A DNA stretch of 35,603 bases from Gallionellaceae bacterium. GTDB taxonomy: Bacteria; Pseudomonadota; Gammaproteobacteria; Burkholderiales; Gallionellaceae. The DNA is taken from positions 1-35,603 of the forward strand of contig JAQTOM010000014.1 in NCBI GenBank assembly GCA_028713345.1. The letters run 5' to 3'. Both the position numbers and the translations under genes were made by a program. The notes below the pieces were generated by a model. It was not told the DNA's origin. It saw nothing but the letters and a program-made list of their open reading frames with translations, and searched no databases. Position 1 is the first letter of the stretch. Every line of letters begins with the position of its first letter. Shown here one piece after another: positions 16,044 through 30,112 of this stretch.

Positions 16044-19000
16044 TCATTTGCCGCCCCTGAATAGCGCCCGCTCCTTGATCAGCGCGTAAATCGCCGGGAT
16101 CACGATCAGGGTGAGAAGAGTGGCAGAGATCATGCCGCCGACCATGGGCGCCGCAATGCGGCGCATCACTTCGGAGCCGACGCCGCTGCCCCACATGATC
16201 GGCAGCAGTCCTGCCATGATCGCCACCACCGTCATCATGATGGGGCGCACACGCAGCAATGTTCCTTGTATGACGGCATCATAGACATCGCCCAAGCCCA
16301 ACTGCTCGCCGGAAGACTGGCGTTTCAAAATGATGGCCTGTAGCGCATGATCCATGTAAATCAGCATGATTACTCCGATCTCCGCAGACACTCCGGCCAG
16401 CGCGATGAAGCCGACCGCTACCGCAACCGACAGGTTGTAGTCGAGCAGCCACATCAGCCACACGCCGCCGACCAGCGCAAAGGGAACCGACAGCATCACG
16501 ATGAGCGCTTCGGTCAGGCGCCGGAAGTTGAGGTAAAGCAGCACAAAAATAATCGCCAGCGTGACCGGAATCACGACCTTCATCTTTGCGGCGGCGCGTT
16601 CCATGTATTCGAATTGCCCGCTCCAGGTCACGTAATATCCCGGCAAAAATTTTACCTGCGCGCGCACCGCTTTCCGGGCATCGGCGACATAGCCGCCGAT
16701 GTCGCGGTCGCGGACGTCCACATAGATGTAAGCCGACAACAGCGCATTTTCGGTGCGGATGGCCGGTGCGCCTTTGGCAATCTCGACCCTGGCCAACTGG
16801 CCGAGCGGAATCATCGCGCCCTCCATGGTCGGCACCAGGATTTGCGTGGCGATCATTTGCGGGGTGGAGCGCAGTTCACGCGGGTAGCGCACCGCGACGC
16901 CGAAGCGTTCCCGGCCCTCCACGGTGGTGGTCACCGTTTCGCCGCCCAGAGCGGTGCTGATCACATCCTGCAAGTCGCCGACCGCGAGACCGTAGCGCGC
17001 CAACTGTTCGCGGTCGGGTTCGATATTGAGGTAAAAACCGCCGGTGATGCGCTCGGCAAATGCGCTGGCCGTACCCGGAACCGCCTTGACGACGGCCTCG
17101 ATTTCTTTCGCCAGCCGTTCCATTTCGTTCAGGTCACGGCCGAACACCTTGATGCCGATGGGCGTGCGGATGCCGGTGGAGAGCATGTCTATGCGCGCCT
17201 TGATCGGCATGGTCCAGGCATTCGCCACCCCCGGGATTTGCAGCGCCGCATCCATCTCGGCAATGAGCTTGTCCAGGGTCATGCCGGGACGCCAGGCGGA
17301 TTGCGGTTTCAGGTTGATCGTGGTCTCGAACATTTCCAGCGGCGCCGGATCGGTCGCGGTCTGGGCGCGGCCCGCCTTGCCGAATACCGACTCCACTTCC
17401 GGGAAACTTTTGATGATCTTGTCCTGAGTCTGCATCAGCTCAGCCGCCTTGGTCACCGGCATGCCCGGCAGGGATGCGGGCATATACAACAGCGTGCCTT
17501 CGTTCAGCGTGGGCATGAATTCGCTGCCGAGTTTTGCCGCCGGAAAAAGACTGGCCACCAGCACCGCCAGCGCCACAACGATGGTCAGTTTCTTCCAGCG
17601 CATGACCCAGGTAATCACCGGCTTGTATATCCAGATCAGCAAGCGGTTCAGCGGATTCTTTGTTTCGGGCATGATCTTGCCGTGGATGAACAGCAGCATC
17701 AGCACCGGCACCAGTGTGATGGAAAGCAGGGCGGCGCCCGCCATGGAGAAGGTCTTGGTGTAGGCGAGCGGCGAGAACAAACGCCCCTCCTGCGCTTCCA
17801 GCGTGAATACCGGCAGGAATGATACGGTGATGATGAGCAGCGAGAAGAACAGCGCCGGGCCGACTTCCTTGCAGGCGGCGATGATGGCATCGCGTCTCAA
17901 ATTTCCGGGCGCTTCCTGGTGCGCCCCCTCACCCCCACCCTTCTCCCGGAGGGAGAAGGGCTTCTCTCCCTTCTCCACTCGGGAGAAGGGCTGGGGATGA
18001 GGGAGCACAGGTTGTTCAACTGCCGGCTCATCCTGTTTCAACCGCTCCAGATGCTTGTGCGCGTTCTCGATCATCACAATTGCCGCATCCACCATCGCGC
18101 CGATGGCGATGGCAATGCCGCCCAGGCTCATGATGTTGGAGTTCATCCCCAGGCCATGCATGGCGATGAACGCGATCAGGATGCCGACCGGCAGCATGAG
18201 GATGGCGACCAGCGCACTGCGCACATGCATCAGGAACAACACGCACACCAGCGCGACTATGATGCTTTCCTCCAGCAGCGTGCTCTTGAGATTGTCTATG
18301 GCGCGGTGGATCAGCTCGGAGCGGTCATACACCGTTTTGATTTCGACGCCCGACGGCAGGCCGCTGGAAATTTCCGCGATCTTGTCCTTGATGTTATGGA
18401 TGACTTCGAGCGCATTCTGGCCGTAGCGCGCCATCGCGATGCCGGCGACCACCTCACCCTCGCCGTTCAGTTCGGTCAGGCCGCGCCGCTCGTCCGGCCC
18501 CAGTTCCACCCGCGCCACATCGCGCAACAGCACCGGCACGCCCCGCTCGGCTTTGACCACCAGTTGTTCGATATCCGTTTTCCCGCGCAGGTAGCCGCGT
18601 CCGCGCACCATGAATTCCGTCTCGGCCATTTCTATCACGCGCCCGCCGACATCGCGGTTGCTGTCGCGGATCACCTGGCTGACCCTCGACAAGGGAATGC
18701 CATAGGATTGCAACCTGCGCGGATCAACCACCACCTGATACTGCTGCACGAAGCCGCCGATGCTGGCTACCTCGGCCACGCCGTGCGCCTTGGTCAACTG
18801 GTAGCGCAGGTACCAATCCTGGATCGTGCGCAATTCGGCCAGCGTGCGCTGCGTCCCGATAACCGCATACTGGTAAACCCAGCCCACCCCGGTCGCATCC
18901 GGGCCGAGCGCTGGCGTCACATTCTTTGGCAATCGGCTGGCGGCAAAATTCAGGTATTCGAGCACGCGCGATCTTGCCCAATAGACGTCGGCGCCATCCT

Positions 19001-19292
19001 CGAAAATGACGTAAACAAAGGAAGCGCCGAAGAAGGAGAAGCCGCGCACCACCTTGGACTTCGGCACCGACAGCATGGCGGTGGTCAGCGGATAAGTCAC
19101 CTGGTCTTCCACCACTTGGGGCGCCTGCCCCGGGTATTCGGTGTAAACGATGACCTGCACATCCGACAGGTCGGGCAGCGCGTCCAGCGGCGTCTTGAGC
19201 ACGGCGTACACGCCCGCCCCGACCACAAATAAGGTTGCCAGCAACACCAGGACGATATTGCGGCTGGACCATTCGATAATCCTGGACAGCAT
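16044..19292 (-). CDS. cusA: CusA/CzcA-type heavy-metal efflux RND permease (carries a repeat-derived insert)
   Basis: 1082 aa; 'MLSRIIEWSSRNIVLVLLATLFV', 'DALPDLSDVQVIVYTEYPGQAPQVVEDQVTYPLTTAMLSVP', and C-terminal TM block characteristic of CusA. Confidence 0.93.
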   Translation of the reverse strand: MLSRIIEWSSRNIVLVLLATLFVVGAGVYAVLKTPLDALPDLSDVQVIVYTEYPGQAPQVVEDQVTYPLTTAMLSVPKSKVVRGFSFFGASFVYVIFEDGADVYWARSRVLEYLNFAASRLPKNVTPALGPDATGVGWVYQYAVIGTQRTLAELRTIQDWYLRYQLTKAHGVAEVASIGGFVQQYQVVVDPRRLQSYGIPLSRVSQVIRDSNRDVGGRVIEMAETEFMVRGRGYLRGKTDIEQLVVKAERGVPVLLRDVARVELGPDERRGLTELNGEGEVVAGIAMARYGQNALEVIHNIKDKIAEISSGLPSGVEIKTVYDRSELIHRAIDNLKSTLLEESIIVALVCVLFLMHVRSALVAILMLPVGILIAFIAMHGLGMNSNIMSLGGIAIAIGAMVDAAIVMIENAHKHLERLKQDEPAVEQPVLPHPQPFSRVEKGEKPFSLREKGGGEGAHQEAPGNLRRDAIIAACKEVGPALFFSLLIITVSFLPVFTLEAQEGRLFSPLAYTKTFSMAGAALLSITLVPVLMLLFIHGKIMPETKNPLNRLLIWIYKPVITWVMRWKKLTIVVALAVLVASLFPAAKLGSEFMPTLNEGTLLYMPASLPGMPVTKAAELMQTQDKIIKSFPEVESVFGKAGRAQTATDPAPLEMFETTINLKPQSAWRPGMTLDKLIAEMDAALQIPGVANAWTMPIKARIDMLSTGIRTPIGIKVFGRDLNEMERLAKEIEAVVKAVPGTASAFAERITGGFYLNIEPDREQLARYGLAVGDLQDVISTALGGETVTTTVEGRERFGVAVRYPRELRSTPQMIATQILVPTMEGAMIPLGQLARVEIAKGAPAIRTENALLSAYIYVDVRDRDIGGYVADARKAVRAQVKFLPGYYVTWSGQFEYMERAAAKMKVVIPVTLAIIFVLLYLNFRRLTEALIVMLSVPFALVGGVWLMWLLDYNLSVAVAVGFIALAGVSAEIGVIMLIYMDHALQAIILKRQSSGEQLGLGDVYDAVIQGTLLRVRPIMMTVVAIMAGLLPIMWGSGVGSEVMRRIAAPMVGGMISATLLTLIVIPAIYALIKERALFRGGK
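17926..18003. repeat. Palindromic repeat element (78 bp) inside cusA
   Basis: CCCTCACCCCCACCCTTCTCCCGGAGGGAGAAGGG (17926-17960) is nearly the reverse complement of 17968-18003 (CCCTTCTCCACTCGGGAGAAGGGCTGGGGATGAGGG). Encodes part of 'LPHPQPFSRVEKGEKPFSLREKGGGEG'. Confidence 0.85.
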
Positions 19293-19294
19293 GA

Positions 19295-20758
19295 TCAGTG
19301 CCCTTTATGTTCGGGGGCGGGGGGATTCCCCCCTTCAGCGAAGGCAGACTGGGGGGGATTTTGCGGCACAACAAATCCCGCATTCCCCCCCTTTGCACCC
19401 GCGATAGGTGCGCCGGCGGGTTCCCCGCTGCTCCGCAGCGACCCTTCCGCAGCCAAAGGGGGGCTACCTTGCGCACCATGCGCGGCATGTTCGCCGAACC
19501 CGCCGACTGCCGCCTTCAGGTTGCTCTCCGCATCAATCAGGAAATTGGCCGCGACGACAACCTTCTCGCCCGCGCCGACTCCTTCCAGCACCTCGACGTA
19601 ATCATCGCTTTGCGTGCCCAGCCTGACCTCCCTCGGCTCGTAACGGCCTTCGGCCAGTGCAATCAAAATAATCTGACGCGTGCCGGTATAAATCACCGCC
19701 GAGACCGGGATGCTGAGCACGTTTTCTTTCCTGCCGCTGCCGGCGGCAATTTCCACGCCGGCGTACATGGCCGGTTTCAGCAAACCGCCCGGATTGGGCA
19801 GTTCGAGGCGGACCGGAACGGTGCGCGTCTGCGGGTTCAGCGTCGGATAAACGTAGGTTACCTTGGCATCGAAATTCTTGTCCGGGTAAGCGTTGATTTT
19901 TACTTTGGCGGATTGCCCGGACTGGACGAAGGGCAAGTCCTGTTCGAATACTTCGACGATCACCCAGACCGTCGAGAGGTCAGCGATCTGATAGAGCATT
20001 TCACCGGGCATGAAGCGCATGCCCTGTACCGCCTTCTTTTCCATGACAATGCCGTTCACCGGGGAACGTAAAGTGAGCGTCCGTCTGGCTTCGCCGGTCG
20101 CATTCAATTGCCGGATTTGCTCATCGCTGATTTCCCAGTTGCGCAGGCGTGTGAGGCTGGACTCGGCCAGTTGCCGCATCCCCTGCTGCGCCTGCGGCTC
20201 CGCTCCACTCATGGATTTCTGCCCGGAAACCGCTATCGCATATTCCCGCTGCGCCGAAACCAGTTCAGGGCTGTAAACGTCCAGCAGCGGCTGATCCTTG
20301 GCGACCGGCTGCCCTGTAGTGTTTACGTACAGCTTGTCTATCCAGCCCTCGAACCGGGGCGCGATGGTGAACATCCTGCGTTCGTCCGCCTCGATCTTGC
20401 CAACCGCACGCAGCACGCGGTGAATTTTCCGCAACGCAACCGTCTCCGTCCTTACACCGAGTTTCTGCACCTTCTCAACACTGATTCCGACCCGTTTGCC
20501 GCCGACATCCGCTTCTTCTTCGCCTTCATACACAGGCACATAATCCATACCCATCGCATCTTTTTTGGGTACAGTCGAGGTATCCGGCAAGCCCATCGCA
20601 TTACGGTAATAGAGTATCTTGCGTTCCTTTTTGGCCGGTGCAGTGGCGGTTGCCTGCTGCGCCATCTCGTGTTTTGCGGAGCCGTAGCGCTGACCTACCC
20701 AGATACCCGCTCCCAGCATTGCCGCCAGCAATATGGCGATGGTCAATTTGGATTTCAT
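19295..20758 (-). CDS. cusB: CusB-like RND periplasmic adaptor (membrane fusion protein)
   Basis: 'ILYYRNAMGLPDTSTVPKKDAMGMDYVPVYEGEE', 'APRFEGWIDKLYVNTTGQPVAKDQPLLDVYSPELVSAQREY'. Confidence 0.92.
   Translation of the reverse strand: MKSKLTIAILLAAMLGAGIWVGQRYGSAKHEMAQQATATAPAKKERKILYYRNAMGLPDTSTVPKKDAMGMDYVPVYEGEEEADVGGKRVGISVEKVQKLGVRTETVALRKIHRVLRAVGKIEADERRMFTIAPRFEGWIDKLYVNTTGQPVAKDQPLLDVYSPELVSAQREYAIAVSGQKSMSGAEPQAQQGMRQLAESSLTRLRNWEISDEQIRQLNATGEARRTLTLRSPVNGIVMEKKAVQGMRFMPGEMLYQIADLSTVWVIVEVFEQDLPFVQSGQSAKVKINAYPDKNFDAKVTYVYPTLNPQTRTVPVRLELPNPGGLLKPAMYAGVEIAAGSGRKENVLSIPVSAVIYTGTRQIILIALAEGRYEPREVRLGTQSDDYVEVLEGVGAGEKVVVAANFLIDAESNLKAAVGGFGEHAAHGAQGSPPLAAEGSLRSSGEPAGAPIAGAKGGNAGFVVPQNPPQSAFAEGGNPPAPEHKGH
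19320..19465. repeat. G/C-tract inverted repeat cluster in the 3' end of cusB
   Basis: CCCCCCTTTG (19386-19395) pairs with CAAAGGGGGG (19454-19463); adjacent 'ATTCCCCCCTTCAGCGAAGGCAGACTGGGGGGGAT'. Translates as a low-complexity Gly/Pro/Ala tail. Confidence 0.55.
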
Positions 20759-27327: not shown

Positions 27328-27360
27328 TTGGTGCTCCTTTCAGTCGCAGAGAAGGGGAAA

Positions 27361-27455
27361 ATCAGAGAAGGAGGAAGAGAGAAGGGGGAAGGGTAAAAAC
27401 CGCATCCCGCTTTTGACGTTACCCTTCCCCCTTCTCCCTTATCCCTTCCCCGCTT
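27361..27455. repeat. Palindromic repeat, copy A (between iscS and iscU)
   Basis: 18-bp perfect stem GAGAAGGGGGAAGGGTAA (27379-27396) / TTACCCTTCCCCCTTCTC (27419-27436), 22-nt loop; homologous to the reverse complement of copy B at ~30018-30112. Confidence 0.85.
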
Positions 27456-28670
27456 TTAATGTGCCGCCCACTGCACGCTATTCAAATCAATCCCGTCCTT
27501 ATACATCTCCCACAGCGGAGACAGGTCGCGCAGCTTGCCGATCTTGTCCTTCATCAATGCCACGGTGTAGTCCACTTCTTCCATGGTGGTAAAGCGTCCC
27601 ACGCTGAAGCGGATCGAACTGTGCGCCAGCTCATCGCTGCGTCCCAATGCGCGCAGCACATAGGACGGCTCCAGGCTCGCCGAGGTGCAGGCGGAGCCGC
27701 TGGATACCGCGATATTCGTGACCGCCATGATCATCGATTCGCCTTCCACAAAGTTGAAGCTGACGTTCAGGTTGTGCGGCACGCGCTGTTCAAGATCACC
27801 ATTCAGGTGTACTTCCTCCATGCTCGACAGCCCTTGCCACAGGCGGTCGCGCAGCATGCGGATACGCTCGTTTTCGGCTGCCATTTCCTGTTGCGCGAGA
27901 CGGAATGCCTCACCCATGCCGACGATCTGGTGCGTGGGCAAGGTGCCCGAACGCATGCCGCGCTCGTGCCCGCCGCCATGCATCTGCGCTTCCAGGCGCA
28001 CGCGCGGCTTGCGCCGCACATACAGCGCGCCGATGCCTTTCGGACCATAGGTCTTGTGCGCGGAAAACGACATCAGGTCAACCTTCAGCTGTTGCAGGTC
28101 TATCGCCACCTTGCCGGTTGCCTGCGCCGCATCGACATGGAACAGGATGCCCTTTTCACGGCAGATTTCGCCTATCGCTGCGATGTCCTGAATCACGCCG
28201 ATCTCGTTGTTCACCGACATCACCGAAACGATGATGGTATCGGGGCGCAATGCCGCCTTGAGTTTTTCCAGATCGAGCAGGCCATTCGCTTCGGGAGCCA
28301 GATACGTGGCGGAAAAACCCTGCCGCTCCAGTTCGCGCACGGTATCCAGCACCGCCTTATGCTCGGTCATCATCGTAATGATGTGCTTGCCCTTGCCCGA
28401 ATAGAAATGCGCCGCACCCTTCAGTGCCAGGTTGTTGGACTCGGTTGCCCCAGAAGTCCACACGATCTCCTTGGGGTCGGCGTTCACCAATGCCGCCACC
28501 TGTTCGCGCGCACGCTCCACCGCCTCATCTGCCACCCACCCATAGGAATGGGAGCGGCTGGCCGGGTTGCCGAACTTCTCGGTCAGGTAGGGAATCATCG
28601 CTTCCGCCACGCGCGGGTCAACCGGTGTGGTGGCCGAATAATCCAGATAAATTGGAAAGTGCAAACTCAT
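27456..28670 (-). CDS. iscS: Cysteine desulfurase IscS
   Basis: '[24 protein letters not shown]', '[24 protein letters not shown]', '[21 protein letters not shown]'. Confidence 0.97.
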
Positions 28671-29989: not shown

Positions 29990-30017
29990 CGTTCACTCGT
30001 TCTTTAATCCAGCAAAA

Positions 30018-30112
30018 AATGGAGAAGGGTTAAGGGAGAAGGGTAAAATCCGGAGTGCTGAGAGGTTTTACCCTTCTCCCTTCCCTCTTCTCTCTTCCTC
30101 TTTTTCTGATTC
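30018..30112. repeat. Palindromic repeat, copy B (overlaps 3' end of trmJ)
   Basis: 17-bp perfect stem AAGGGAGAAGGGTAAAA (30032-30048) / TTTTACCCTTCTCCCTT (30066-30082); reverse complement aligns with copy A ('AATCAG.GAA..GAGGAAGAGAGAAG.GGGA...'). Confidence 0.85.

Follow-up and report, generated by a model that had tools for sequence, protein, structure and literature searches.

We found that cusA, a copper-efflux pump gene of a betaproteobacterium (Gallionellaceae), contains a dispersed hairpin repeat that is read in frame as protein, and that the same loop of CusA holds different repeats in related genomes. These observations probably reflect the scattering of non-autonomous hairpin repeats, with survival limited to copies that are in frame and lie in dispensable loops; the loop in CusA would be a safe site that is used recurrently. 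All positions refer to the window, by which we mean the whole stretch of DNA analysed, 35,603 nucleotides in length.

The cusA gene and its expanded loop

The minus strand of the window encodes a copper-export cluster that comprises a CusC-like outer-membrane factor, CusB, CusA and a copper P-type ATPase. The cusA gene (16044 to 19292, minus strand) is an intact, uninterrupted open reading frame for a heavy-metal efflux RND pump of 1082 amino acids, which scored 1227 bits against TIGR00914 (CusA/CzcA; cut-off 701) and matched the E. coli CusA structures at E=0. When aligned with these solved structures, residues 2-423 and 466-1072 of the window protein matched continuously, and the 42 residues between them (424-465) faced 8 residues of E. 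coli CusA (434-441), to which they did not align. The first-pass annotation had stated that E. coli CusA has no equivalent of this segment. That is right as regards length, because 42 residues face 8, but the loop itself is present in E. coli. We take the expanded segment to be the cytoplasmic TM4-TM5 loop, following the topology known from RND pumps. The commonest empty loop is 23 amino acids long (e.g. locus L059), and relative to a loop of this type the window carries an expansion of 126 nt, or 42 codons (17898 to 18023, minus strand).

The window pump looks functional, because M604, M654 and M703, which align with what we take to be the methionine triad of E. coli CusA (M573, M623 and M672), are invariant in 43 homologues, as is D402. 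In an AlphaFold model of the full protein, the insert was the stretch of lowest pLDDT and had no secondary structure, and it was flanked by intact helices (387-417 and 463-491). The model suggests a disordered insert, with the weak support that its modest quality allows (pLDDT 62.8), modest because the alignment was shallow. In the neighbouring CusB, a repeat of another type (gggggattcccccc...gggggggatttt...caaatcccgcattcccccc), which resembles group D of some CusA loops (see below), encodes the C-terminus (about residues 420-487; window 19298-19500), a part of the protein that the family match does not reach.

Within the expansion lies a 90-nt hairpin (17920 to 18009, minus strand) that is made of two inverted REP-like units placed head to head, with 40 base pairs and a 7-nt loop, and whose arms pair right to their ends. 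It codes for the peptide VLPHPQPFSRVEKGEKPFSLREKGGGEGA, which sits in frame between ENAHKHLERLKQDEP and CKEVGPALFFSLLIITVSF. Two palindromic units are nested in it (repeat D6, plus strand), CCCTTCTCCCGGAGGGAGAAGGGCT at 17938 to 17962 and CCCTTCTCCACTCGGGAGAAGGGCT at 17968 to 17992, the second being 84% identical to the first. The first reading of this DNA had already placed an inverted repeat with nested palindromes at 17926-18003 and had noted that the gene stays open through it, all of which held. Its estimate of an insertion of exactly 78 nt (26 codons) had to be revised to a paired region of 90 nt and an expansion of 126 nt, the 78-nt palindrome being only part of the sequence added to the loop.

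The hairpin is far beyond chance. The RNA fold of the element reached -80.5 kcal/mol against a mean of -42.7 for shuffled sequences (z -9.7; none of 200 shuffles was as good), and the DNA fold gave z -7.1. Four of the six reading frames are open through the element against 2.9 in shuffles, which is not remarkable, and we rejected the idea that the element is unusually open in all frames. An internal terminator was also rejected, no terminator-like site being found at the hairpin, as was membership of a known RNA family, for which the only hits were weak ones to miRNA models, far below gathering scores and best read as chance matches to a hairpin.

Copies in the host genome and in relatives

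A search of the host genome (1.96 Mb in 122 contigs, 89.7% complete) gave 46 matches to the element at E<=10, with good scores at about 25 separate places. The copies come as singlets of about 34 nt and as doublets of 78-90 nt. About half of them are intragenic, and about 11 lie in frame inside conserved genes, the carriers being CusA, a DprE1-like oxidase, HemD, MurG, NnrD, a glycolate-oxidase-like protein, GatB, OppDF, PurL, GlnE and MlaF. The glycolate-oxidase-like FAD/Fe-S protein, named from the appearance of its sequence (no NCBIfam match), holds two copies, and the copy in MlaF is near the N-terminus. The cusA case is accompanied by inserts in some ten other conserved host genes and in about half of the CusA genes of the family.

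Empty sites were found in relatives for hemD, murG, gatB, glnE, mlaF, oppDF, nnrD and purL. The loops were short in all relatives compared for OppDF (7/7, at both ATPase-domain inserts) and HemD (5/5), and in most of those compared for MurG (4/5), GlnE (3/5) and GatB (3/4). In some relatives the same loop held another insert, namely in GatB (G010), GlnE (G004 and G009), NnrD (G009) and PurL (G010 and G005). Loops with different repeat families across genera were seen in purL (L028 and L133), glnE (L174 and L175), gatB (L171) and nnrD (L159). Aligned CusA homologues likewise include short-loop orthologues that lack the segment. With these and the further copies in the host genome, neither of the observations that would have refuted the first-pass annotation was made.

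The element was found in 32 of 60 genomes of the family, covering 14 of 15 genera, and among the best matches the copies in relatives are mostly intergenic. One doublet of the window type lies in frame in an apparent cysteinyl-tRNA synthetase (L218, G057). In the host genome (loci L003, L006, L007, L008, L009, L017, L020 and L024), some copies belong to a longer element of MITE type. Its imperfect terminal repeats are rich in AT (ATTATTGA...TGACAGT), it encloses a GC-rich core similar to the CusA element, and it is mostly intergenic. Elsewhere in the window, iscS and a TrmJ-like gene have polypurine inverted repeats at their 3' ends (27358-27457 and 30015-30111), and the C-terminus of the TrmJ-like protein, KKDESEKEEERRGKGEG, appears to be repeat-encoded.

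We looked for a Y1 transposase (Y1_Tnp/RAYT) as the mobiliser of the element. None was present in the host genome at its 89.7% completeness, and none of 20 Y1_Tnp loci in relatives adjoined a listed element. RAYT was consequently rejected as a demonstrated mechanism, although it may still be involved.

It is very improbable that the inserts are an artefact of assembly or of strain mixture in a metagenome bin. The fragmentation of the host genome would fit such an artefact, and gatB is present in two near-identical copies that lie on separate contigs and each carry the insert (L025 and L026), which does hint at strain mixture or assembly duplication. However, an artefact is disfavoured because single-contig genomes (G064, G057, G165 and G012) carry inserts at the same CusA loop, in G064 and G057 of the same element family, and the frame is intact throughout.

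The CusA loop across the family

We then took a census of the loop with a profile that allows for a long loop, applied to 158 genomes of the family of the window, which appears from the names of its tree neighbours to be Gallionellaceae, and obtained 111 CusA loci. Of these, 59 had a loop of baseline length and 51 a loop longer by 4 to 81 codons, all of them open; single loop lengths are approximate because three of the loci run off the end of a contig. Most CusA loops of named genomes are 23-29 amino acids long, and longer loops, unrelated in sequence, occur in Sulfuricella, Gallionella, Sideroxydans and some other betaproteobacteria. Among 43 full aligned CusA sequences, the TM4-TM5 loop was the sole loop with insertions or deletions of more than 5 amino acids. 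In other families of the order, 28 CusA loci were compared; a clear expansion was seen in 4, which all belong to a single family, f15.

The inserts were sorted at the DNA level into groups A to H. Group A is the window type and is also found in G064, G044, G057 and G048; the others are group B (CCCCTTGTCAGGGGAGG), group C (CCGTTCGTCCTGAGCTTGTCGAAGG), group D (CCCCCCTTTGAAAAAGGGGGG), group E (CCCTCTCCCGCTGGCGGGAGAGGG), group F (CCTCCCCTTCAAGGGGAGGG), group G (GTCATTCCCGCGAAAGCGGGAATCC) and group H (GGGGTCAGATCCCAATT). Only A with E and B with F are similar, if short and weak similarity among certain GC-rich arms is set aside, and the inserts therefore comprise at least six sequence-unrelated groups of hairpin repeats. 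In the five groups checked (B, D, E, F and G), the repeat is multi-copy in the genome whose CusA bears it; group G has more than 40 copies, among the matches listed, in one genome of 1.3 Mb. For group C in G053, the CusA copy was the only one among the matches listed.

Most inserts fold with z between -3 and -9.4, and empty loops give values near 0. This raised the question of whether the hairpin at this loop is favoured for a function, the mRNA hairpin slowing the ribosome between TM4 and TM5 as a translation pause for membrane insertion, or the charged linker regulating the pump, so that unrelated mobile repeats were recruited and domesticated again and again at one site. Strong hairpins in most inserts regardless of sequence would agree with such a role, as would the concentration of expansions in CusA (50 of 111 loci in this comparison, against 1 of 38 metal-pump paralogues found by the same profile in mostly the same genomes; Fisher p about 2e-7, with relatedness ignored). 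We nevertheless consider a function unlikely. The 59 CusA genes of baseline length do without an insert, the added length ranges over the whole span given above, the short inserts of L082, L291, L313 and L317 have no strong hairpin, the insert peptides have no common motif, and the loops of PurL, GlnE, GatB and NnrD have been struck likewise. The sole expanded paralogue (G152:C35:110151-111179) is longer by about 80 codons in this loop.

History of the loop

On a quick tree built from the loop-less CusA core, long and short loops interleave, with 27 changes of the loop-length label against 39.8 when labels were shuffled; well-supported branches force only 3 changes. Among near relatives (86-93% DNA identity in the flanks), CusA holds group C, group A, group C or nothing. 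Long-loop alleles across genera have a common downstream junction, R(A/S)xAIL, unlike the ESRFEAML of short alleles.

These data leave some room for a different history, in which a long-loop allele originated a single time long ago and was passed on by descent or recombination. Its content would have been replaced later, and the original coding loop would seldom have received an insertion. We regard this history as possible but as the less probable one. The common junction, the clustering of the loop-length label on the tree and the composite fillings of L277, L287 and L144 point towards it. On the other hand, at least six unrelated repeat groups would each require an insertion of their own even then, alleles with long and with short loops are intermixed on the quick tree, and the junction itself may be ancestral because the short 26-amino-acid loops of other betaproteobacteria also have RAxAM. 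Since the long alleles share the R(A/S)xAIL junction, refilling of an older long loop is inseparable from fresh insertion, and some of the present inserts may have replaced earlier ones in a single ancient allele with a long loop. Whether by fresh insertion or by refilling, the unrelated groups require about six or more insertion events.

Discussion

The reading that we prefer is that of scattered repeats retained at safe sites. The segment in the window cusA gene would be a non-autonomous, REP/BIME-like hairpin repeat of two inverted units of about 34 nt, belonging to a dispersed family whose copies insert widely across the genome in a transposition-like manner. For a genic copy to be kept, the net length added would have to be divisible by three, the GC-rich element would have to be free of stop codons in that frame, and the peptide would have to lie in a surface loop that the protein can spare, where it may be neutral. 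The ribosome would then read through the element and turn it into a Pro/Gly/Glu/Lys-rich, presumably disordered linker. The TM4-TM5 loop of CusA would be such a safe site, and unrelated repeats would have entered it time and again in Gallionellaceae and in a neighbouring family.

The behaviour of the element resembles that of the Rickettsia palindromic elements, the precedent named in the first-pass annotation: both are dispersed, multi-copy palindromic repeats found in frame in unrelated, conserved and apparently functional proteins whose orthologues lack them. The likeness drawn here is one of behaviour. The host here is a betaproteobacterium of a free-living group, its nearest CusA genes and relatives being those of Gallionellaceae and other betaproteobacteria, and here one loop is struck by several unrelated families. 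Nor is Rickettsia the sole precedent, as intragenic GTAG/CGTC REPs have been described in Opitutus, Thauera, Xanthomonas and others, over several phyla (Di Nocera 2013, PMC3733652). These are palindromes of 20-40 nt, single or in inverted dimers, some of which lie in open reading frames and code for 20-30 amino acids, and in one case, Xanthomonas recB, different REPs occupy about the same site (PMC3733652).

Our element is like REP and BIME sequences in its short palindromic units and in its occurrence as singlets and inverted doublets. We did not file it under the GTAG/CGTC REPs because it has no such tag, the host copies that were read starting with CCCTCA and finishing with TGAGGG, and because the host genome, as far as it is complete, has no RAYT. 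The sharing of a site also differs in scale: of 111 CusA loci about half are involved, with six or more groups of repeats. The enterobacterial RU repeats, MITE-like sequences of 103-168 bp that are read as parts of proteins (Delihas 2007, PMC2759123), are similar in being small MITE-like repeats translated within proteins, but they are unrelated in sequence, and the insertions described here are mostly in inner loops of conserved proteins. The novelty lies in the bacterial group that hosts the repeats, in the coding nature of these repeat families, and in the extent to which they converge on a single loop. A limited literature search returned no paper on coding repeats of this kind in Gallionellaceae, which is weak evidence of novelty.

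For annotation, these data carry a warning, in that database peptides such as PHPNPLPEGEG are repeat DNA. The inserts also mark natural insertion-tolerant sites in CusA, PurL, GlnE and GatB. Palindromes that code for protein are commonly presented as a peculiarity of Rickettsia, and here they occur on a large scale in environmental betaproteobacteria. Because the loop of a single protein occurs there both with and without inserts, and with several repeat families side by side, it becomes testable how repeats enter proteins without breaking them and whether they ever become useful. In this freshwater family of the iron-oxidising type, mobile-looking hairpin repeats appear routinely to become protein without breaking working genes.
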